A DNA stretch of 42,665 nt, taken from assembly GCA_013791775.1 (NCBI GenBank), contig VMTE01000009.1:1-42665 (forward strand). The letters run 5' to 3'. The notes under the pieces were generated by a model. That model did no database searches. It was not told where the DNA came from and was given only the letters and a program-made list of their open reading frames with translations. Below, in pieces: positions 2,726 through 20,445 of the stretch. Made by a program: the position numbers and the translations under genes. Positions within the stretch are counted from its first letter, which is position 1. The number at the start of each line of letters is the position of its first letter. This stretch comes from Hyphomonas sp. (lineage in GTDB: Bacteria; Pseudomonadota; Alphaproteobacteria; Caulobacterales; Hyphomonadaceae).

Positions 2726-3574
2726 TTACGCCGCGCGCAGATCTCCGCTGATCCGCGCCCCGAGAAGTTCGGTCAGGTATCCACCGTCCCGAAGACTTTC
2801 TGCTTTGCGGATCACATAGCGCAGGGACGCGCGCAGCGCGCTTCCATCATTGCCCCATTCTTCCGCAACGGCGGCGGGGCCGTGAAGGAGCGAGGCAATT
2901 TCGCGCTGGCTCATTCCGGCTTTGAGACAGTCGAGCGCGATGACGCCATTACGCAGGATCTGCGTCGTCTTCGTCCAGCGCGCCGCTGACGTGTCCGGAC
3001 CTTTTCCGTAGAGGCGGAGCGCTTCCTTCTGGACTTTCAGCTTGCGCTCTAAATCGATGAGATCTGGCGTCTGCATTTTCATTCTTACCGGTTCAATACT
3101 GAGATGAGACATGCCGGTGCAGCGCACCTGGACGATGCATCCCTTTCCGCGGATCAGGAGATATTCACGGGCCGCGGTGTCGGTGACGTGTGTAATGCTG
3201 CAGTGATGTACGGTCCGGTCCCAGATATCGCAGCGCTCACCCGGCAGGCGCGGCGTGCAATTCACCTCGACCTGGTCGGGAAACACGTAATGGGTCCAGA
3301 CCGCGTCGGCGTCGATTCCGCTCAAATCCGGATCCGGCATGAGCACCAAGCCCCAGCGCTCTGCGAGGCCCTGCGGCACGCGCGACCGGAGCAGCCGGAT
3401 GGGGGCGCAGGGCGCCTTCCTCTCGGAAATGTCGGCATCCTTCCGGCTGGCCGCATCGCGGCGCAGTTCGTCATTGCGCCGGGCGTACTCCCAGGCCCAG
3501 CGATCCATAGGAAGGCGGGACAGGTAATCGTAGGGGGCAGTCTCTGCGCAGGTCTCGAGTGTAAACGTCTTCAT
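2726..3574 (-). CDS. DUF6499-DUF2285 transcriptional regulator (FseA-like)
   Basis: A 282-residue protein. The N-terminus YDYLSRLPMDRWAWEYARRN is the DUF6499 signature. The C-terminal half, with KEALRLYGKG, DCLKAGMSQREIASLLHG and SLRYVIRKAESLRDGGY, is a DUF2285 helix-turn-helix domain. Proteins of this architecture are common in alphaproteobacterial ICEs. In Mesorhizobium symbiosis islands the equivalent activator FseA is made by ribosomal frameshifting from two genes and switches on excision; here both domains are in one uninterrupted frame. Start ATG 3574 has ACGAGGA close upstream and is preferred over ATG 3613. The gene diverges from trbB, so it may control the transfer operon or the excision gene; that is inference. 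Confidence 0.82.
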   Translation of the reverse strand: MKTFTLETCAETAPYDYLSRLPMDRWAWEYARRNDELRRDAASRKDADISERKAPCAPIRLLRSRVPQGLAERWGLVLMPDPDLSGIDADAVWTHYVFPDQVEVNCTPRLPGERCDIWDRTVHHCSITHVTDTAAREYLLIRGKGCIVQVRCTGMSHLSIEPVRMKMQTPDLIDLERKLKVQKEALRLYGKGPDTSAARWTKTTQILRNGVIALDCLKAGMSQREIASLLHGPAAVAEEWGNDGSALRASLRYVIRKAESLRDGGYLTELLGARISGDLRAA

Positions 3575-3633
3575 TGCAGTCCTCGTTCTGCCCACAGGCA
3601 AAGCAAATTTCATTCCAAAGAAGAAATGTGCGA

Positions 3634-13465: not shown

Positions 13466-13663
13466 ATGAGCCTAAGCCTCAAGGATCTGGAAGAAGGCCG
13501 CCGGATCGCCGCGCTTGTGGTCCGCTACTGCGGTGACAAGTACTTTCCGCTTTTCGACAGGTTCGACCGGGAAGTCCAAAATCGGCGTTCGGCGGCCGAC
13601 CGGATCGAAGCTGCGCTTAGCCGCCCGAACGCCGGCCACCGCTCGGGGAGGCCGAACACTTGA
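13466..13663 (+). CDS. Small conserved-type ICE protein, 65 residues
   Basis: Begins MSLSLKDLEEGRRIAALVVR and is highly charged and helical (FDRFDREVQNRRSAADRIEAAL). It fills the gap between DUF736 and the toxin-antitoxin pair in the same direction and codon style, 19 bases after the DUF736 stop. I do not recognise a named family; it resembles small hypothetical proteins seen at this place in other ICEs, which is memory and not a search. No cysteine pair or membrane segment is present. Confidence 0.6.
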   Translation: MSLSLKDLEEGRRIAALVVRYCGDKYFPLFDRFDREVQNRRSAADRIEAALSRPNAGHRSGRPNT

Positions 13664-13692
13664 TTTCTTCAGAAATAAATGGCATGTATACT
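13663..13692 (+). promoter_or_regulatory. Possible xre operator/promoter
   Basis: ATTTCT (13663-13668) and AGAAAT (13671-13676) form a short inverted repeat two bases apart, and TATACT (13687-13692) could be a -10 element. The stretch is AT-rich compared with its surroundings and precedes the antitoxin gene, where Xre autorepression would be expected. A matching -35 is not evident. Confidence 0.35.
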
Positions 13693-13713
13693 TTCACAGG
13701 AAAGGATGCGGCC

Positions 13714-14091
13714 ATGACCCAGGCAAAGGCAGTCAACGCTCAGGAGCGGGCCCGGATACTGACCATGGCGGTCGTCAGGGCAGCGGAAAAGCTTGGTATC
13801 ACCGGGCGCGACCTCGCCACGATTCTGGGGGTTTCGGAACCGACGATCTCCCGGATGCGCAAGGACGAGTTCCGGCTCGAGGAAGGCACCAAGCCTTTCG
13901 AGCTGGGAGCGTTGTTCGTTCGCCTGTTCCGTTCGCTCGATGCGATCACAGGCGGCGACAGCAAAGTGGCGCACGCATGGCTTCGCAATGAGAACCGGGC
14001 GCTGGGCGGCCGGCCACTCGATCAGATCAAGACGATAGCAGGACTGACGCATGGCCTTGCCTACCTGGATTCCCGGCGCGCTCCGCTCTGA
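13714..14091 (+). CDS. Xre/MbcA/ParS-type antitoxin
   Basis: A 125-residue protein. A helix-turn-helix (GITGRDLATILGVSEPTISRM) is followed by a DUF2384-type toxin-binding part (ALFVRLFRSLDAITGGDSKVAHAWLRNENRALGGRPL). This is the antitoxin of Xre-RES systems, which neutralises its RES partner and represses the operon. ATG 13714 is preferred: AGGAAAGGA lies eight bases upstream, while earlier in-frame starts (TTG 13660, ATG 13684) have none and fall in the putative promoter. It overlaps the toxin gene by 41 bases. Confidence 0.87.
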   Translation: MTQAKAVNAQERARILTMAVVRAAEKLGITGRDLATILGVSEPTISRMRKDEFRLEEGTKPFELGALFVRLFRSLDAITGGDSKVAHAWLRNENRALGGRPLDQIKTIAGLTHGLAYLDSRRAPL

Positions 14092-14788
14092 GCAAAAGCC
14101 GCTGCAAGGCGTTTTCTGGCGCTGCGTGGAGGCACAACATGTTGTATCCACGCTGCAGCTTGTCGACACGCTGGACGAGCAACGCGTCCTTGAAGACATG
14201 CTGGAAGAAACCAAGCCGCCTGTTCCGCCTGAATGCGCAGGCCTGCATTATCTCTACTTGACGCCGTTCCGGTACGGGCTCTATCCGAACGGATCCAGGT
14301 TCCGCCGCGCGGGCCAGACACCCGGCGTCTACTATGTGTCGGAAGAGCCAGCGACGGCCATCATCGAAACCGCGTTTCATCTCCTGCTGTTCTACGCCGA
14401 CTCGCCCGGAACCCCGTTCCCCGCCCAGCCTAGCGAACACACAGCTTTTGACGTGCCGGTGCGCACCGATGCAGCAATCGATCTCTCCGCAAAGCCGTTC
14501 AATAGGGCAAGCGACCTCTGGATGCATCCCTCAGACTACGAACCATGCCAACAACTCGAAGAAGCCGCCCGCGCCGAAAAGGTCCAACTGATCCGCTACA
14601 CGTCCGTCCGTGACCCGCAGCAACGTCCCAACGCCGCAATCCTTAACTGCGCAGCGTTCGCCGCTAAAGCGCCGTCACAAAACCAGACCTGGCGGCTCCT
14701 CTTCAACAAAGCCGGCATGCATGCGATCTGCGAGTTTCACAGGGTCAAGTTCAGCTTACCATCTGATCTGTGGTCGGATGATCCATGA
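14051..14788 (+). CDS. RES domain toxin (NAD-degrading type)
   Basis: A 245-residue RES-family toxin. Typical pieces are FWRCVEAQHVVSTLQLVD at the start, RFRRAGQTPGVYYVSEEPATAIIE in the middle (Arg, Tyr and Glu of the active region, here given in overlapping parts under twenty residues: RFRRAGQTPGVYY and SEEPATAIIE), and LIRYTSVRDP. Characterised RES toxins destroy cellular NAD. The start is inside the antitoxin gene with AGGA eight bases upstream, so both proteins come from one message. As part of an ICE the pair probably stabilises the element. It is longer than the shortest RES toxins but within the family range. Confidence 0.87.
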   Translation: MALPTWIPGALRSEQKPLQGVFWRCVEAQHVVSTLQLVDTLDEQRVLEDMLEETKPPVPPECAGLHYLYLTPFRYGLYPNGSRFRRAGQTPGVYYVSEEPATAIIETAFHLLLFYADSPGTPFPAQPSEHTAFDVPVRTDAAIDLSAKPFNRASDLWMHPSDYEPCQQLEEAARAEKVQLIRYTSVRDPQQRPNAAILNCAAFAAKAPSQNQTWRLLFNKAGMHAICEFHRVKFSLPSDLWSDDP

Positions 14789-15016: not shown

Positions 15017-15766
15017 TTATTCCCTCCGGTGCGCGACAAGCGTTATCACGAGTGCATCCCGAAAGCCGGGCCGACGGGGATCCATACGGCGGATCGGCGC
15101 AACTGCATGCGCCAGGCAGCGGTCATTGAGAAAAACCAAGTCTAGCTCGTTTGCGAGCAAAAGCGCTTGTATCTCCTTGCCGGTCATGTCGGCGACGCGT
15201 GTTGTCCCGCCTGACACATTGAGGCGCTTGATCAGTATGACACAAACCCAGTCTACGCCGTCGCGATGCATGCCTTCGGGTGTCGGAAACGCTTCCTCGT
15301 CAGCGTGAGGCTCAATCCGAAACTGGTGTACCTCGATCCTGTGAACATTTTCCTGACCAGGTTCGAGCTCAGCTATAAGTCGCCCGCACGCGACAACGAG
15401 ATCACGGAGAAGTATGCTTGCGCCGACGGTCGCACCGATTGGCTCGAACCAGCGCTGCACGCCGCCATTAAGCGGGTTGTAGTCGCGGCTTTGGAAGTGA
15501 GGCTGATGTTCACGCCGTAGCAGTACTCCCCGGCGCAATTGAAACACCGCATGGCGACGCCGACGATAGCCGCCGCCGTCTGCCATGTAAGTGTCTGCGC
15601 CTAGATCGTTCCAGCTTTCCGCGAAGGCGTCCCAGCTTTCAATTGATTCACTTGTGAGCAGCAACTTCGTCGCTTCCCCGTTCACGAAAGTGCAGCCAGA
15701 GCGCCGAACCTCATCCCTCATGCGATCGAGCAGCGCCGCGGGACTAGGCGCGGGCGCGCCTGTCAT
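15017..15766 (-). CDS. 2OG-Fe(II) dioxygenase (PF10014 family)
   Basis: A 249-residue cytoplasmic enzyme. The 2-oxoglutarate/iron motif is complete: His167-Arg-Asp169 (in PEGMHRDGVDWV), distal His220 (LNDRCLAHAVAPI) and Arg236 for the co-substrate. The surrounding pattern VHQFRIEPH and VSGGTTRVAD matches the family that includes bacterial free amino-acid hydroxylases such as L-isoleucine 4-hydroxylase. The substrate here cannot be read from sequence. The ATG overlaps the redoxin stop as ATGA, which sets the start over a TTG six bases earlier. It is the last gene of the five-gene protoglobin operon. Confidence 0.82.
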   Translation of the reverse strand: MTGAPAPSPAALLDRMRDEVRRSGCTFVNGEATKLLLTSESIESWDAFAESWNDLGADTYMADGGGYRRRRHAVFQLRRGVLLRREHQPHFQSRDYNPLNGGVQRWFEPIGATVGASILLRDLVVACGRLIAELEPGQENVHRIEVHQFRIEPHADEEAFPTPEGMHRDGVDWVCVILIKRLNVSGGTTRVADMTGKEIQALLLANELDLVFLNDRCLAHAVAPIRRMDPRRPGFRDALVITLVAHRRE

Positions 15767-16299
15767 GAGCAACCATCAGGCGTGCACACACCGCCAAGCT
15801 CACCGCTGGGTCGCGTGCTCCCGAGCGGGCGCTCGCCGATCAGTGTGGCCAATTCTGCACCGAGCTGCAGGTCGGACAGGTGACCGAAAGCATGTGTCCT
15901 CAGACGACCCTGGCGATCAATCAACAGCGTTGTCGGCGTGCCGCGCATTTCATAAGCGCGCATGGTGAGTGGCGGTCCGCCCGAACCATCAGGCTGGTCA
16001 ACACCGACCGGAAAGCCAATGCGGTATTCATGCAGGAAAGCCTCCAGCGACACCGGCATCATCGCCGCGTGGTGCTCGAACACCGTGTGCAGACCAATCA
16101 CGGCTAAATCGTCCGGAGAAAAGGCTGCGCGCGCCCGCTGAGCCTGCGGCAGACCTTGGCTCACGCAGCCGGGGCAGAGCATCTGAAACGCGACCGCGAG
16201 GATAACCTTCCCTCGCAAAGCATCAACTGAGAGAGGCACGTTTGTGTTTAGCCACTGGGCGATTTTCCACTCAGGTGCAGGCGCCGATTGGATCGTCAT
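15763..16299 (-). CDS. AhpC/TSA-TlpA-like redoxin with CPGC motif
   Basis: A 178-residue thioredoxin-fold protein. It has Cys42-Pro-Gly-Cys45 (FQMLCPGCVSQGLPQ), the cis-proline segment GTPTTLLIDRQGRLR, and a second cysteine pair at the very C-terminus (Cys172, Cys177), which could be a resolving or relay site. No signal peptide is visible, so it probably acts in the cytoplasm, unlike classical TlpA. A peroxidase or disulfide reductase role is possible. Start and stop overlap both neighbours by ATGA, so expression is tightly coupled within the operon. Confidence 0.83.
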   Translation of the reverse strand: MTIQSAPAPEWKIAQWLNTNVPLSVDALRGKVILAVAFQMLCPGCVSQGLPQAQRARAAFSPDDLAVIGLHTVFEHHAAMMPVSLEAFLHEYRIGFPVGVDQPDGSGGPPLTMRAYEMRGTPTTLLIDRQGRLRTHAFGHLSDLQLGAELATLIGERPLGSTRPSGELGGVCTPDGCS

Positions 16300-16535
16300 G
16301 CTATCTCCGGATCGAGCCAGTAGGCGTTGGCAGCAGCGATCGTGTTGAAATGCACTGCAACGATGTGGCTGATCTCGATCAGCAGCCCGGCATTCTGGTC
16401 ATAGTCGGATCGAAGGGATCTGCGAATGTCTGCATCTGGCTGGGTTGCCTTCACCGCCAACCGGGCCAGCCGGATGGCGAGGTTGAAGCCTGACAGCGGA
16501 TCGGGTGTGCGCAATGAAAAGACCTCGCCCGTCAT
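16296..16535 (-). CDS. Unknown small protein, 79 residues, in the protoglobin operon
   Basis: I do not recognise a family. The protein has no cysteine and no signal peptide and looks helical: FNLAIRLARLAVKATQP, then LLIEISHIVAVHFNTIAAANAYW. ATGA overlaps at both ends (16532-16535 with the upstream gene, 16296-16299 with the redoxin gene) show that it is a translated member of the operon and not a chance frame. It may be a partner subunit or adaptor for one of its neighbours; that is inference from the coupling only. Confidence 0.7.
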   Translation of the reverse strand: MTGEVFSLRTPDPLSGFNLAIRLARLAVKATQPDADIRRSLRSDYDQNAGLLIEISHIVAVHFNTIAAANAYWLDPEIA

Positions 16536-17290
16536 TGCACGTGACCCGGCAGGCTAAGGTCATCAGAGGCGATATCGAAAACATCGCGCACGCAGAGCAA
16601 GGGCGCATGCACATTGGCATTGACCTGCAAACCAGCCGTCACCGCATCAAACCGGACATCTTTCAGTTCGTATGCATCGGCAAACGGCACCCGTACAGCA
16701 ACAGCGGCTGCATCCATGGTCACTGGAATGTCGGGACTGTCGATCAGGATCGGCAAGCCGGGCCAGGTCGGTGGGACGCGTGGGCTCTCCCCTTCGGGGA
16801 TGTCTTTGACTTTGAGCGCGCCTGGTCCGCAAGCATCATCCGGCGCCAGCACCACCCAATGGCTGTGCCAGAGATAGCCATCATCGTCTTTGCTGCCGCT
16901 TGCGTCTTCATCATAGAGGGGCGTGTCGTCGAAGTCCGGATGGGCGGTGACAGCGAATGCGAGAATTCCCTGATCGGGCTCGAACCCGACTACGGATGAG
17001 TCCAAGGATGTCGGCCAGACGTATGAGAAGACCTCGGCAGAAGCAAGCGTTCCACGCGCTGTCGGGCGGGTATCGCCTGCTTTTCCCGACACATGCATGT
17101 GAAAGACGAGAGCATTCGAGTCCCGGGTGACGCGGGCATGCACGATATCAAAGTCGGCCATCGTCGCATCGGTTTCATCGTGTATCTCGCCTTCCTTGTT
17201 TTCATGAACATGGTGGCCGTGCCCGGCGACCGAACAAGCCGTGCTCAAGGTGGCGAGCGTGCCGAGGAGCACGAGTGAGTGCAAACGCAT
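16532..17290 (-). CDS. Exported (probably lipid-anchored) His-rich protein of unknown function
   Basis: A 252-residue protein. The leader MRLHSLVLLGTLATLSTAC ends in a lipobox-like STAC (Cys19; Ser at -3 is unusual). A histidine-rich stretch follows directly (GHGHHVHENKEGEIHDE), suggesting metal binding. The remainder looks beta-rich (FDIVHARVTRDSNALVFHMHV; YLWHSHWVVLAPDDACG) with two more cysteines and several His-containing strands. I do not recognise the family. It follows the protoglobin gene by 38 bases and is coupled to the 79-residue gene by ATGA. Periplasmic metal, haem or oxidant handling is a guess from composition and context. Confidence 0.75.
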   Translation of the reverse strand: MRLHSLVLLGTLATLSTACSVAGHGHHVHENKEGEIHDETDATMADFDIVHARVTRDSNALVFHMHVSGKAGDTRPTARGTLASAEVFSYVWPTSLDSSVVGFEPDQGILAFAVTAHPDFDDTPLYDEDASGSKDDDGYLWHSHWVVLAPDDACGPGALKVKDIPEGESPRVPPTWPGLPILIDSPDIPVTMDAAAVAVRVPFADAYELKDVRFDAVTAGLQVNANVHAPLLCVRDVFDIASDDLSLPGHVQ

Positions 17291-17328
17291 TTGATCTTTT
17301 CCCTGATGGTTGTGCTTCGATTGAAAAC

Positions 17329-17913
17329 TTAGAAGTCGCCGGCGATGACATAAGGCCGCGCCCAGAGGATGGCGTGCAGCCAGACAGACTTCGTCCAGGC
17401 TGCATGCATGGCGTCTACATCGTCTGGTGAGTTGCCAGACTTTGCGAGGAAAGGCCTGACCGTGACTGAAATCGGGATAGCGAGCGCGAGCAGCTGACTC
17501 ATGGGGATATGCGGCGCGGCGCTGACACTGTCTGTCTTGTTCTTGCCGATACGGTGATGACGCCTGCCGATTTCATCCTGCCAGGCGAGCCAGGCCGCGT
17601 CGAAGTCTGCTCTGCAGGTATCAAGGATCCACTGGCCGAAGCGTTTGCGAACGGCATCCAGATAAGGGCCGACGGGCTCACCGGTTTCAGTGGAGAAGTA
17701 GCGCAGCAAATGGGGATTGCTGCCGACGAAGCCGTACCAAACGTCAAGGATCGCCTCGACCTGCGGGGCCAGAACGTCATAGGCGCGTCGCAGGGCCGCG
17801 ACATCGTCGGGCCCGAACAGTAGTGAGGCTTTCAGTTCCTCGAAGTCCCGAAGAGATACTGGCGAAGGCGGCAGAGCCGGGTCGTTGAGGCGATAGCCGG
17901 GGATCGTTGTCAC
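17329..17913 (-). CDS. Protoglobin, single-domain haem protein
   Basis: A 194-residue globin of the protoglobin/globin-coupled-sensor family (PF11563). Diagnostic stretches are DVWYGFVGSNPHLLRYFS and DEIGRRHHRIGKNKTD; His120 (second of the pair) falls where the proximal haem ligand of archaeal protoglobin is placed. No signalling domain is attached, so it is more likely a ligand carrier or haem enzyme (O2, NO, CO or peroxide chemistry) than a one-protein sensor. GTG 17913 is chosen because AAGGAG lies six bases upstream and it gives the family length; the open extension to 17985 crosses the promoter and palindrome. First gene of the leftward operon. Confidence 0.87.
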   Translation of the reverse strand: MTTIPGYRLNDPALPPSPVSLRDFEELKASLLFGPDDVAALRRAYDVLAPQVEAILDVWYGFVGSNPHLLRYFSTETGEPVGPYLDAVRKRFGQWILDTCRADFDAAWLAWQDEIGRRHHRIGKNKTDSVSAAPHIPMSQLLALAIPISVTVRPFLAKSGNSPDDVDAMHAAWTKSVWLHAILWARPYVIAGDF

Positions 17914-17944
17914 GCAGGTCTCCTTGCGAGGAAGAGGAAAACTC

Positions 17945-17967
17945 GTTAGTATTGACTCAATACTAAC
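17945..17967. promoter_or_regulatory. Perfect palindrome (11-bp arms) in the marR-protoglobin divergent promoter
   Basis: GTTAGTATTGA and TCAATACTAAC flank a single central C. Candidate promoters on both strands have their -10 inside it: rightward TTGCGA (17924-17929), 17 bases, TAGTAT (17947-17952); leftward TTGACG (17985-17980), 17 bases, TATTGA (17962-17957). One bound MarR dimer would therefore shut off both the regulator and the operon. Site and arms are seen directly; the binding is inference. Confidence 0.8.
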
Positions 17968-17975
17968 AGGCTCAG

Positions 17976-18563
17976 ATGGCGTCAATGAAAAAGAGCGACT
18001 CGCTACTAATTTCTTCCGGCTTGCGCGCAGTCCACCTGATTGAGCGGCTCGGGCGATTGCTGCGTGCTGGTGATCATGCGGCCGGGCTCAACCCCGCCCA
18101 GGCCGAAGCACTGCGCTACCTTGCGCGGGCGAACCGGTTTTCGCGCACCCCGGCTGCACTTGCCGAATATCTCGGCTCCACGCGTGGGACGGTTTCGCAG
18201 ACCCTGCTTGCGCTTGAGGCGAAAGGGATGATTGACCGCAAGGCGAACGCCCGAGACGGCAGATCAATCATGCTGGAACTCACCCCTTCAGGAATGGAGT
18301 TTCTCGGCGACGACCCTGTTCGGATGATCGCAAGGGCAATTGACGCAGGCTCCGCCGCGTCGAGCCTGGCGGATGACCTGGAGGCGGGACTGCGAACATT
18401 TATAGCCGAGCGGGGCGGGAGGGCGTTCGGTGCCTGCCACACCTGCCGCCATTTTCGTTTGAATCAACGATCCGGCAATCATCCGCACCACTGTGCCTTG
18501 CTGGATGAACCCCTCAGCGATGCTGATAAGTCGATGATTTGCTTGGAACAGGCTGACGCTTAA
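17976..18563 (+). CDS. MarR-family regulator with four-cysteine C-terminal tail
   Basis: A 195-residue protein. The MarR winged helix covers about 15-145 (LNPAQAEALRYLARAN, then STRGTVSQTLLALEAKGMI as recognition helix, then RDGRSIMLELTPSG as wing). Beyond the usual MarR end is a tail with Cys154-x2-Cys157-x15-Cys173-x15-Cys189 and several histidines (CHTCRHF, HPHHCALL), able to hold zinc or an iron-sulfur cluster, or to act as a thiol switch. It probably represses itself and the divergent protoglobin operon through the palindrome at 17945. ATG 17976 has a modest AGG six bases upstream; ATG 17985 is also possible. Confidence 0.86.
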   Translation: MASMKKSDSLLISSGLRAVHLIERLGRLLRAGDHAAGLNPAQAEALRYLARANRFSRTPAALAEYLGSTRGTVSQTLLALEAKGMIDRKANARDGRSIMLELTPSGMEFLGDDPVRMIARAIDAGSAASSLADDLEAGLRTFIAERGGRAFGACHTCRHFRLNQRSGNHPHHCALLDEPLSDADKSMICLEQADA

Positions 18564-18755
18564 CGCCTGTCAGGCATCATACGCAGGAGCAGCGGAGAAC
18601 CGCCTGATCCATCGTGGCCGCTTAGTTAAGCTCCAACGACGATGTCGCCTTTCGGAGATAAATTGCCGGAGCAGCACCGCATGCGAGAGACAGCTATCGG
18701 CGCAAGAGCGGCCTTTGCAGTGGGCCGCCGGGTGACCGGATGGGCCGCGCACTGC
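18564..18755. other. Intergenic between marR and the convergent integrase gene
   Basis: No gene is supported in these 192 bases and no strong terminator with a T tract was seen. It lies between the cargo module and the integration module and may be an older recombination junction. Confidence 0.4.
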
Positions 18756-20234
18756 TCACTTCCCTGACCTTTGGCGAGGACCGAGATCGCGCGATAACAC
18801 CCCTGAAAGCTTGCCGCCCAACGCCCACTCCGGATTTTCCCGATCAAGTAACGCCATCACGCGAACATCATACGGATGCACAATCTTCAGGAGCTCATCC
18901 CTCCGATATTCCAACGATCCCCCGTCCCCGTAAACCGGCCTCGTCGTCTTGTGACCCATCAGCAAGCAGCGCAGGCCATAGTCGACATTGGCCTCCTGCA
19001 TGCGCTTCTCGAACGCGTGCCTCAGCGAATATATCTTATGATCAGGCGTCTCCAAGAGGCCGCGGTTGCGGAAGTTCTTCATCATGTTTGCCGAGAAAAG
19101 CTCGCCCTTGTCATAGTAGTGGGCAAATGCCCTCGGCGCCGCGCGCCTCGCCGCTTCCAGCGAAATGCCGACCAGCGGGATGTCACGCTCGGATGTGTCG
19201 GTCTTCACCTCCCGGTCATTCCGTGCCCGGATGGAAATATAAGGTACCGGCTCATCGATATGGAAATCCTCGACCCGCAGGTTGATGATCTCGCTCGGCC
19301 GGCAGCCGGTCTCGATCAACATCAGGGTGATGAGCTGAAGTTCCGGGCGCCATTTTCGGGTCGCCCCGGGCGCAAGGATCTTCTCCCGCACCCATTCGCT
19401 TGAGAAGGGCGGAACTTCGGTGCGCGTCTTTGCTTTGAAGTGCATATTGCGGAACGGGTTCGCCCGCTCTTCTTCCCCGACATGCTTGAAATAGTCAGTA
19501 TAGAGGGACCGGATATTGCCGATGTGCCGGTTTGCCGTATTGGGCGCGATGGCCTCTGCCTTGGGATCCTTCGGCTTCACCTGCCCGGCCCAGTGCTTCT
19601 GGTAGTCGAGGGCGAGTTCGCGGGTGATCTCTTCGAGGGGAATGTCGCCCGCGAAGTCGATGAAGTACTGGATGGAGGTTCGCTTGGTCTTCTCCCAGGC
19701 GGCCTGCTGGTTTGGCGATTTGTAGAGCTGCGCGTTGTAGGCAATTTCGCTGACGTAGATCTGGAAGGCCTCTGACACGGTCACCGTGGGTTTCGGCGCC
19801 CCGCCGAGCAGGGCTTCGGCGTCGCGCACCTTGGGTATCTCCTGAGGCCCAGCGCCGTGGTGGACGGCAAGAAGCCGGGCCAGCGCCTCCTCGATGGGCG
19901 CCGCCGTCGCGAGATGATCGATTGGCTGGTAAGTGAACCCGCTGGCAAGCGCCTTGACTGTGGCCATCCGGTAGCGACGGCGGACCGCGTCTCCGGCTTC
20001 CCGATTGGAAGCAGGGCCTGCCTCTTCGGCGATCAAGAGAGATGCCCAATAGTGGTCGTCCGCTTCAGCGAGGAGGTCGCGCTTGTGGCGTGCCTGCTCA
20101 AGGGAGGTTGTGCCCAGGGACTCCTTGATCCGCCGGCGCGTATCGAGACGCGCAAACCGTTCCGGGACCCGGCGGTTGTACCACCAGACCCGGCCTCTTT
20201 GCTCGAGGTAAGAATTGTCTTCGACGCGCTTCAT
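18756..20234 (-). CDS. int: Tyrosine recombinase (ICE integrase)
   Basis: A 492-residue site-specific recombinase that would insert and, with an excision factor, remove the ICE. An N-terminal arm and core-binding region (WWYNRRVPERFARLD; TKRTSIQYFIDFAGDIPLEEI in parts) precede the catalytic domain: Arg312 in TGCRPSEI, Tyr402-Ser-Leu-Arg405 in place of the usual HxxR, His428 in LMGHK and nucleophile Tyr435 in VYGDG. The His-to-Tyr change in box II is tolerated in some family members. Start ATG 20234 (MKRVEDNSYLEQRGRVWWY) is favoured by family pattern; ATG 20267 and 20246 are in frame upstream. It sits 135 bases from the tRNA-Asp 3' end, the usual arrangement. Confidence 0.9.
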   Translation of the reverse strand: MKRVEDNSYLEQRGRVWWYNRRVPERFARLDTRRRIKESLGTTSLEQARHKRDLLAEADDHYWASLLIAEEAGPASNREAGDAVRRRYRMATVKALASGFTYQPIDHLATAAPIEEALARLLAVHHGAGPQEIPKVRDAEALLGGAPKPTVTVSEAFQIYVSEIAYNAQLYKSPNQQAAWEKTKRTSIQYFIDFAGDIPLEEITRELALDYQKHWAGQVKPKDPKAEAIAPNTANRHIGNIRSLYTDYFKHVGEEERANPFRNMHFKAKTRTEVPPFSSEWVREKILAPGATRKWRPELQLITLMLIETGCRPSEIINLRVEDFHIDEPVPYISIRARNDREVKTDTSERDIPLVGISLEAARRAAPRAFAHYYDKGELFSANMMKNFRNRGLLETPDHKIYSLRHAFEKRMQEANVDYGLRCLLMGHKTTRPVYGDGGSLEYRRDELLKIVHPYDVRVMALLDRENPEWALGGKLSGVLSRDLGPRQRSGK

Positions 20235-20245
20235 GGCGCCGCCCA

Positions 20246-20278
20246 TTGGTCCACAATCTGGTCCCAATTTGGTCCACA
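20246..20278. repeat. Three TGGTCC repeats beside the attachment site
   Basis: TGGTCC occurs at 20247, 20259 and 20270; the outer two are in the identical 10-mer TTGGTCCACA (20246-20255 and 20269-20278). Spacing of 12 and 11 bases puts them on one face of the helix. Position between integrase start and tRNA 3' end suggests integrase arm or excisionase binding sites. Confidence 0.55.
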
Positions 20279-20368: not shown

Positions 20369-20445
20369 TGGCGCGAGTGACGGGGCTCGAACCCGCGACC
20401 TCCGGCGTGACAGGCCGGCACTCTAACCGACTGAGCTACACCCGC
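20369..20445 (-). tRNA. tRNA-Asp (GTC), ICE integration target
   Basis: Read on the minus strand, a 77-base tRNA with acceptor stem GCGGGTG/CACTCGC (one G-T pair), anticodon stem CCGGC/GCCGG around loop CTGTCAC (anticodon GTC), T-arm GCGGGTTCGAGCCCC region, discriminator G and encoded CCA. Its 3' end faces the integrase, so the crossover site probably lies in the 3' half and the ICE extends to lower coordinates. A second copy of the 3' end is expected at the far end of the ICE, outside the window; none is seen inside it. Confidence 0.95.

Follow-up and report, generated by a model that had tools for sequence, protein, structure and literature searches.

A MarR-linked operon with two haem proteins in Hyphomonas sp. 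and a candidate modular redox-stress system

The window analyzed here, a whole stretch of 42,665 nucleotides from Hyphomonas sp. (contig VMTE01000009.1), carries an operon of five genes which, read on the minus strand from position 17913 to 15017, encode a protoglobin, an exported protein of an unnamed family, a hexameric tyrosine-coordinated haem protein (HTHP), a thioredoxin-like redoxin and a 2-oxoglutarate-Fe(II) (2OG-Fe) dioxygenase (Table 1). ATGA overlaps join the exported gene to HTHP (16532-16535), HTHP to the redoxin gene (16296-16299) and the redoxin to the dioxygenase gene (the ATG at 15766 lies over the TGA); the gap between the protoglobin and exported genes is 38 bases. The start codon of the protoglobin gene is GTG, and a close relative, described below, has ATG at the same place. 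An earlier reading of this DNA (hereafter, the original prediction) had proposed a coupled five-gene operon beside its own regulator, and the overlaps, the short gap and a divergent marR gene were all found. Judged from its sequence, the operon is a real, conserved, regulated and coupled unit.

Table 1. Position and main database evidence for the operon, its regulator and the adjoining end of the carrier element (coordinates refer to the whole window)
Feature	Coordinates	Strand	Evidence or remark
2OG-Fe(II) dioxygenase, PF10014	15017..15766	-	Pfam 5.6e-60; likely ATG start 15766
Thioredoxin-like redoxin, CPGC	15763..16299	-	AhpC-TSA 6e-07
HTHP (PF11534), 79-mer	16296..16535	-	Pfam 2.9e-28; PDB 2oyy 2e-20
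Exported protein, unnamed family, His-rich N-terminus	16532..17290	-	at least 581 confirmed relatives; conserved HPDFDDTP and WHSHWVVL
Protoglobin (PF11563), GTG start	17329..17913	-	Pfam 5.4e-31; 2veb 4e-57
Palindrome GTTAGTATTGACTCAATACTAAC, probable MarR operator	17945..17967	.	perfect, 23 bases
MarR regulator, C-terminal CX2C-Xn-C-Xn-C motif	17976..18563	+	MarR_2 1e-13; start may be 17985
Tyrosine integrase of carrier element	18756..20267	-	Phage_integrase 6e-06 (just under cut-off); DUF6538 2e-08
tRNA-Asp, probable integration site	20369..20445	-	ARAGORN

The 79-residue product had been described as unknown; it belongs to a known family, HTHP, with a score of 98.4 bits against a PF11534 cut-off of 25, and the operon thus encodes two haem proteins rather than one. 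The founding paper on HTHP is reportedly that of Jeoung in 2007. Tyr45, which by this number we take to be the haem ligand, stands at the aligned place and is invariant in four sequences. Ligation of the haem by tyrosine and electrocatalysis of peroxide are described for HTHP in PMC4813847, and among the open-licence papers searched no report of a cellular role was found. The other haem protein matches PF11563 and has the proximal His F8 and the distal Trp, Tyr and Phe of protoglobins. It agrees in 92 of 192 aligned columns (48% identity) with the protoglobin of Methanosarcina acetivorans (MaPgb), of which it keeps the haem-pocket positions W60, Y61, F93 and H120 (residue names and roles as in PMC3680402); it differs in having Leu in place of F145 and in belonging to a regulated bacterial operon. 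In vitro, MaPgb isomerizes peroxynitrite and reduces nitrite (PMC4020757); the biological role of this best-studied protoglobin is called unknown in PMC3680402.

The redoxin has a CPGC active site, found in 45 of 54 relatives, and an alignment of it with four relatives matches 3eyt (2e-86) and 3lor (3e-59), which places it in the 3EYT/3LOR thioredoxin-like group. AhpC peroxiredoxins carry the peroxidatic motif PxxxTxxC; here FQMLCPGC stands in its place, and an assignment as an AhpC-type peroxiredoxin was rejected. The redoxin would therefore act in thiol reduction rather than in the direct turnover of peroxide. No signal peptide was seen by eye. A second pair of cysteines (e.g., CTPDGCS) occurs at the C-terminus of 23 of the 54 redoxins and is possibly a resolving or shuttle pair. 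As for the dioxygenase, its HRD, H and RD positions align with those of its best matches among PDB sequences, 3pl0 and 9dqp, and it matches PF10014 with the HxD, distal H and R, which have ligand roles. It shares this family, and an active-site pattern that aligns with the family structures, with the amino-acid hydroxylases IDO and HilB, but its operon partners are different, and identity with the HilB isoleucine dioxygenase was rejected (44.1 bits against an NCBIfam equivalog cut-off of 350).

The regulator and its operator-like sites

The product of the divergent gene has the domain and fold of MarR proteins: its AlphaFold model (mean predicted local distance difference test, pLDDT, 86.5) finds MarR proteins as best Foldseek matches, and a palindromic site, the predicted operator, lies by its own gene. 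Weak matches of the protein to the CARF3/Csa3 models of PADLOC were taken as shared winged-helix similarity. Of 68 MarR relatives, 67 have a C-terminal four-cysteine (Cys4) motif, the exception being cut by a contig end, and the four Cys are invariant in all 32 aligned sequences; to go by this pattern, the Cys4 tail is a probable zinc or Fe-S (iron-sulphur) site. The palindrome lies between the marR and protoglobin genes and is the sole such place, within 3 mismatches, in its own genome, so that a regulon extending beyond the operon was rejected for this genome. A search for sigma-70 promoters matched none, against 1.1 in shuffles.

Of 80 MarR relatives, 61 have near their start a site of one of two related types, TAGTWTYGANTCRAWACTA (37) or TTAGGANTCCTAA (24), and 19 have neither; the patterns were drawn from these loci, whose control windows show such sites in 2 cases out of 1346. 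With the first type the regulator gene is divergent in 37 of 37 cases; with the second it heads the operon in 22 of 24, as counted from the list. In 28 of the 37 loci with the first type (e.g., L081, L089 and L145) the site has a partner at a distance of 50-58 bases, about five helical turns; among control windows this holds for 4 of 810. In the window no clear second site was found, the best having 5 mismatches. At up to 2 mismatches the first type occurs in 22 of 23 relative genomes, where a reversed-pattern control is in many as frequent; a strict search for the second type gave a single site in each of 3 genomes out of 17, by coordinates always the module's own. The Cys4-MarR family may have targets outside this module: one further site, in genome G658, belongs to a second, distant member (30% identity to the window MarR; L199 4878-5927), which has its own operator-like pair, 48 bases apart, and is divergent from a gene for a small protein with an SPW match below the cut-off.

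Core and accessory genes of a recurring module

When genome contigs were scanned for the exported family, at least 581 relatives were confirmed, from which the best 80 loci (top-scoring, not random) were kept. The family is marked by HPDFDDTP, WHSHWVVL and a His/Asp cluster. In the window member, described earlier as a His-rich exported protein, the His-rich stretch is confined to the N-terminus; other parts are conserved in the family. The protein has no Pfam family at E up to 1, 43 members of the family gave no convincing Pfam or NCBIfam match (weak single-member Pfam matches, best E 0.018, were disregarded), and none was found among PDB sequences; with a poor AlphaFold model (pLDDT 62.6) and a best Foldseek match at E 0.11, no fold was drawn. 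In an even phylum sample the family occurs in 15 of 398 genomes, the window's own included, and is missing from the two same-genus and two same-family genomes of that sample, which fits mobility. A sizeable group of unannotated proteins is thus associated with a single kind of regulator.

The conserved His/Asp cluster, together with the Cys4 tail of the regulator, could be read as a sign of metal, metalloid or haem/iron stress, with MarR as the metal sensor and the exported protein as a periplasmic metal binder, and two HTHP genes do adjoin mercury or heavy-metal genes. Against this, no metal transporter, efflux or metallothionein gene recurs near the module among a fixed reference set and the clusters present in at least four loci, and the model of the exported protein is too poor to show a site; we regard this explanation as quite unlikely.

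Among the 80 kept loci, labelled genes include those for MarR (60), the redoxin (42), a thioredoxin-like (Trx-like) protein (19), DUF2024 (18), an AhpD-like protein (15), HTHP (8), a MOSC protein (8), the protoglobin (1) and the dioxygenase (1; a broken copy in locus L021 is unlabelled). The phylum sample gave 16 loci from 14 genomes other than the window's (the exported gene has an internal stop in one), with MarR in 13, the redoxin in 7, Trx-like in 5, DUF2024 and MOSC in 4 each and HTHP in 1. The core of the module is therefore MarR, the exported protein and the CPGC redoxin, and the haem proteins, Trx-like, DUF2024, AhpD-like, MOSC and 2OG-Fe proteins vary. The five genes of the original prediction are coupled here, as it had said; as a set they give way, on comparison, to this core with variable additions. 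A tiny Trx/glutaredoxin-like protein (L016 5097-5342 and relatives; 26 labelled copies), mostly with a CxVC motif, is often encoded directly before the exported gene, the slot of the protoglobin in the window.

The closest relative of the operon is in Hyphomonadaceae bacterium BRH_c29 (locus L021), where MarR, protoglobin, exported protein, HTHP and redoxin follow in the same order; DNA similarity covers window positions 15504-18658 at 90.3%, with two short matches elsewhere. The ratio of nonsynonymous to synonymous substitution (dN/dS) between the two is 0.14-0.22 for marR and four operon genes, a sign of purifying selection which argues that the operon is more than a chance assembly. Homology to the dioxygenase ends after about 87 codons (L021 9525-9912); by eye, the break is followed by the end of an IS3-type transposase, and the dioxygenase may be dispensable. 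All five operon genes are intact solely in the window. The original prediction had named a gene order private to the window as counting against itself; the order is not private, since it recurs in BRH_c29, and parts of it in many genomes. Protoglobin matches were found in 7 of 385 genomes, two of them, besides the window's, full-length: in one (L172) MarR, a protoglobin of 80% identity and the redoxin occur together, with protoglobin and redoxin adjacent, and in the other (L173) the adjacent protoglobin-redoxin pair is followed by catalase and cbb3-oxidase genes. A Hymenobacter plasmid carries in one stretch hmpA, Rrf2, catalase, exported, HTHP, protoglobin, DUF2024 and MarR genes. Reduced versions of the module occur in Proteobacteria, Deinococcus, Bacteroidota and a Sericytochromatia bin.

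The dioxygenase joins a MarR, Trx-like, exported and redoxin gene in locus L046, and a MarR, Trx, redoxin and MOSC gene on a Novosphingobium plasmid for which no exported gene is listed. Since PF10014 enzymes hydroxylate free amino acids (PMC3684760), these loci and the window would allow a pathway of small-molecule biosynthesis or breakdown by oxygen chemistry centred on the 2OG-Fe enzyme. We consider this very unlikely: the gene is broken in BRH_c29 and present in few loci, no transporter or further pathway gene was found, and although dioxygenase relatives occur in 13 other genomes of the 385, an exported or redoxin gene was present in 0 of the 11 loci fetched. With linkage this rare, the dioxygenase does not hold the place of a fixed member of the set that it had been given, and neither small-molecule synthesis nor metal binding by the exported protein, both suggested earlier, is supported by this analysis.

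The HTHP locus of Ruegeria pomeroyi DSS-3 has the same arrangement, a marR gene divergent from exported, HTHP and redoxin genes in the same order, and the sequences of the structures 2OYY (HTHP) and 3EYT (redoxin, deposited as an uncharacterized protein) are identical to these two neighbouring genes. It differs from the window in that no protoglobin or dioxygenase is among the features listed there; a MOSC and a PDR/VanB reductase gene are present instead. No paper treating these R. pomeroyi genes as a unit was found, locus-tag searches included, nor, as far as titles and the beginnings of abstracts of open-licence papers tell, any paper on the operon or module. The MOSC-reductase neighbourhood bears on our second-ranked explanation, the detoxification of a thiol-reactive or N-oxidized organic compound (a quinone, nitro or N-hydroxy compound, isothiocyanate or antibiotic), in which MarR would sense the compound, the thiol and haem enzymes would reduce it and MOSC, reductase or 2OG-Fe partners would modify it. 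MarR proteins commonly answer organic ligands and MOSC enzymes reduce N-hydroxy compounds; a MOSC gene is found with the module in 8 of the 80 kept loci and in 4 of the 16 from the phylum sample, and an AhpD-like protein in 15 of the 80. The conserved Cys4 tail, however, suggests redox or metal sensing over a small-molecule pocket, and among the open reading frames scanned a MOSC or reductase gene is absent from the window operon. On balance we find this explanation unlikely, if worth keeping in view.

HTHP occurs in 9 of the same 398 genomes. With the window's genome left out, 3 of 397 have both the exported family and HTHP, against 0.28 expected from 14 and 8 occurrences (p 0.0018), and the two genes are adjacent in one of the three (G658). 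Among 72,556 plasmid records, 7 have protoglobin (E up to 1e-5), 27 have HTHP (E up to 1e-3) and 2 share both (p 3e-06), a sharing made somewhat easier by large plasmids. Pairwise distances of the exported protein, redoxin and MarR correlate over 47 loci, with r from 0.47 to 0.60 and none of 2000 shuffles reaching such values, but shared host ancestry also yields correlations of this kind. That the operon is a chance gathering of unrelated cargo on a mobile element would agree with the wide differences in gene content between loci and with the exact five being intact in one place. It is hardly credible in view of the core and operator-like sites that recur across phyla, the joint occurrence of exported protein and HTHP (p 0.002), the ATGA overlaps and the dN/dS values. 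We hold it an evenly balanced proposition that these loci represent an undescribed, modular redox-stress system which moves horizontally, is found across several phyla and would be a physiological home of HTHP. It would consist of a Cys4-MarR with operators of two classes (in many cases a pair some 55 bases apart), the unnamed exported family and the CPGC redoxin, into which haem proteins (HTHP, protoglobin) and Trx-like, DUF2024, AhpD-like, MOSC or 2OG-Fe proteins are plugged.

A possible role in peroxide and nitrosative stress

A modest link between HTHP and genes for defence against nitric oxide (NO) was found. In the class and phylum samples, 4 of 13 HTHP loci have such genes at a distance of up to about 7 kb, as against 0 of 20 control windows taken from eight of the same genomes (p 0.017); in a hand-picked set of 13 HTHP loci, partly overlapping the sampled one, 6 have them. 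Of the 80 kept loci, 4 of the 8 that contain HTHP and 8 of the 72 others have NO genes or catalase nearby (p 0.015). Genes of the NsrR/Hmp type (Rrf2 regulator, flavohaemoglobin, truncated haemoglobin, hemerythrin, NnrS) adjoin several HTHP-bearing relatives; the window operon, in contrast, has its own MarR rather than an Rrf2 regulator and none of those genes inside. The best reading, which we advance tentatively and place a little short of even, is that the operon is an inducible cassette against peroxide and nitrosative stress (NO or peroxynitrite, and peroxide), a role which the original prediction had proposed and which stands as a sensible one.

In such a cassette, a MarR dimer bound to the palindrome between the divergent genes would repress both; a reactive species, as the signal, would modify the C-terminal Cys4 site, with whatever metal it may hold, and the repressor would let go, upon which the operon would be made as one message. 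We infer a division of labour in which the protoglobin would take NO or peroxynitrite, the HTHP ring would consume peroxide, the redoxin would supply or restore thiol reducing power in the cytoplasm and the exported protein would act on the same stress in the periplasm, where its conserved His/Asp cluster may be the active part. The 2OG-Fe dioxygenase would be an optional extra. The purpose of protoglobin, HTHP and the 3EYT-type redoxin, brought together in one regulated module, becomes a question for deletion and an inducer screen.

Several points weigh against a stress cassette of this kind. The counts for HTHP are small, and matches of 31-36% identity underlie two of the four NO-positive loci. 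Many haem proteins show NO chemistry in vitro, the dioxygenase is without a clear place in the scheme, and the figure of 61 of 80 regulators with an operator-like site is partly circular, its patterns coming from the same loci, which the control rate is not. Further, NO genes are near 0, and catalase near 1, of the 16 core loci of the phylum sample; being absent near core loci and present near those with HTHP, NO genes would be linked to the HTHP-bearing versions of the module, the window's included, and not to its core. Anti-phage defence was rejected as a candidate role, none of the five operon proteins being matched by a PADLOC model.

The carrier element and its neighbours

The mobile element proposed earlier as the carrier of the operon is supported by trb-type conjugation genes, a tyrosine integrase and a tRNA-Asp gene; the order is trb-type genes, DUF736, an Xre/RES pair, the operon, marR, the integrase and tRNA-Asp. 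This gene content suggests that the carrier is an integrated conjugative element in which the operon adjoins the integrase. No attachment-site repeat (a second att copy) was found. The Xre/RES pair, a toxin-antitoxin pair (13660-14788), lies directly before the operon end. On the conjugation-gene side of the contig, a Fic-domain protein (657-1853) matches the PADLOC SoFic model (3e-119), and a protein with a RovC-type DNA-binding domain (2726-3613; 4e-11) is encoded beside the conjugation genes.

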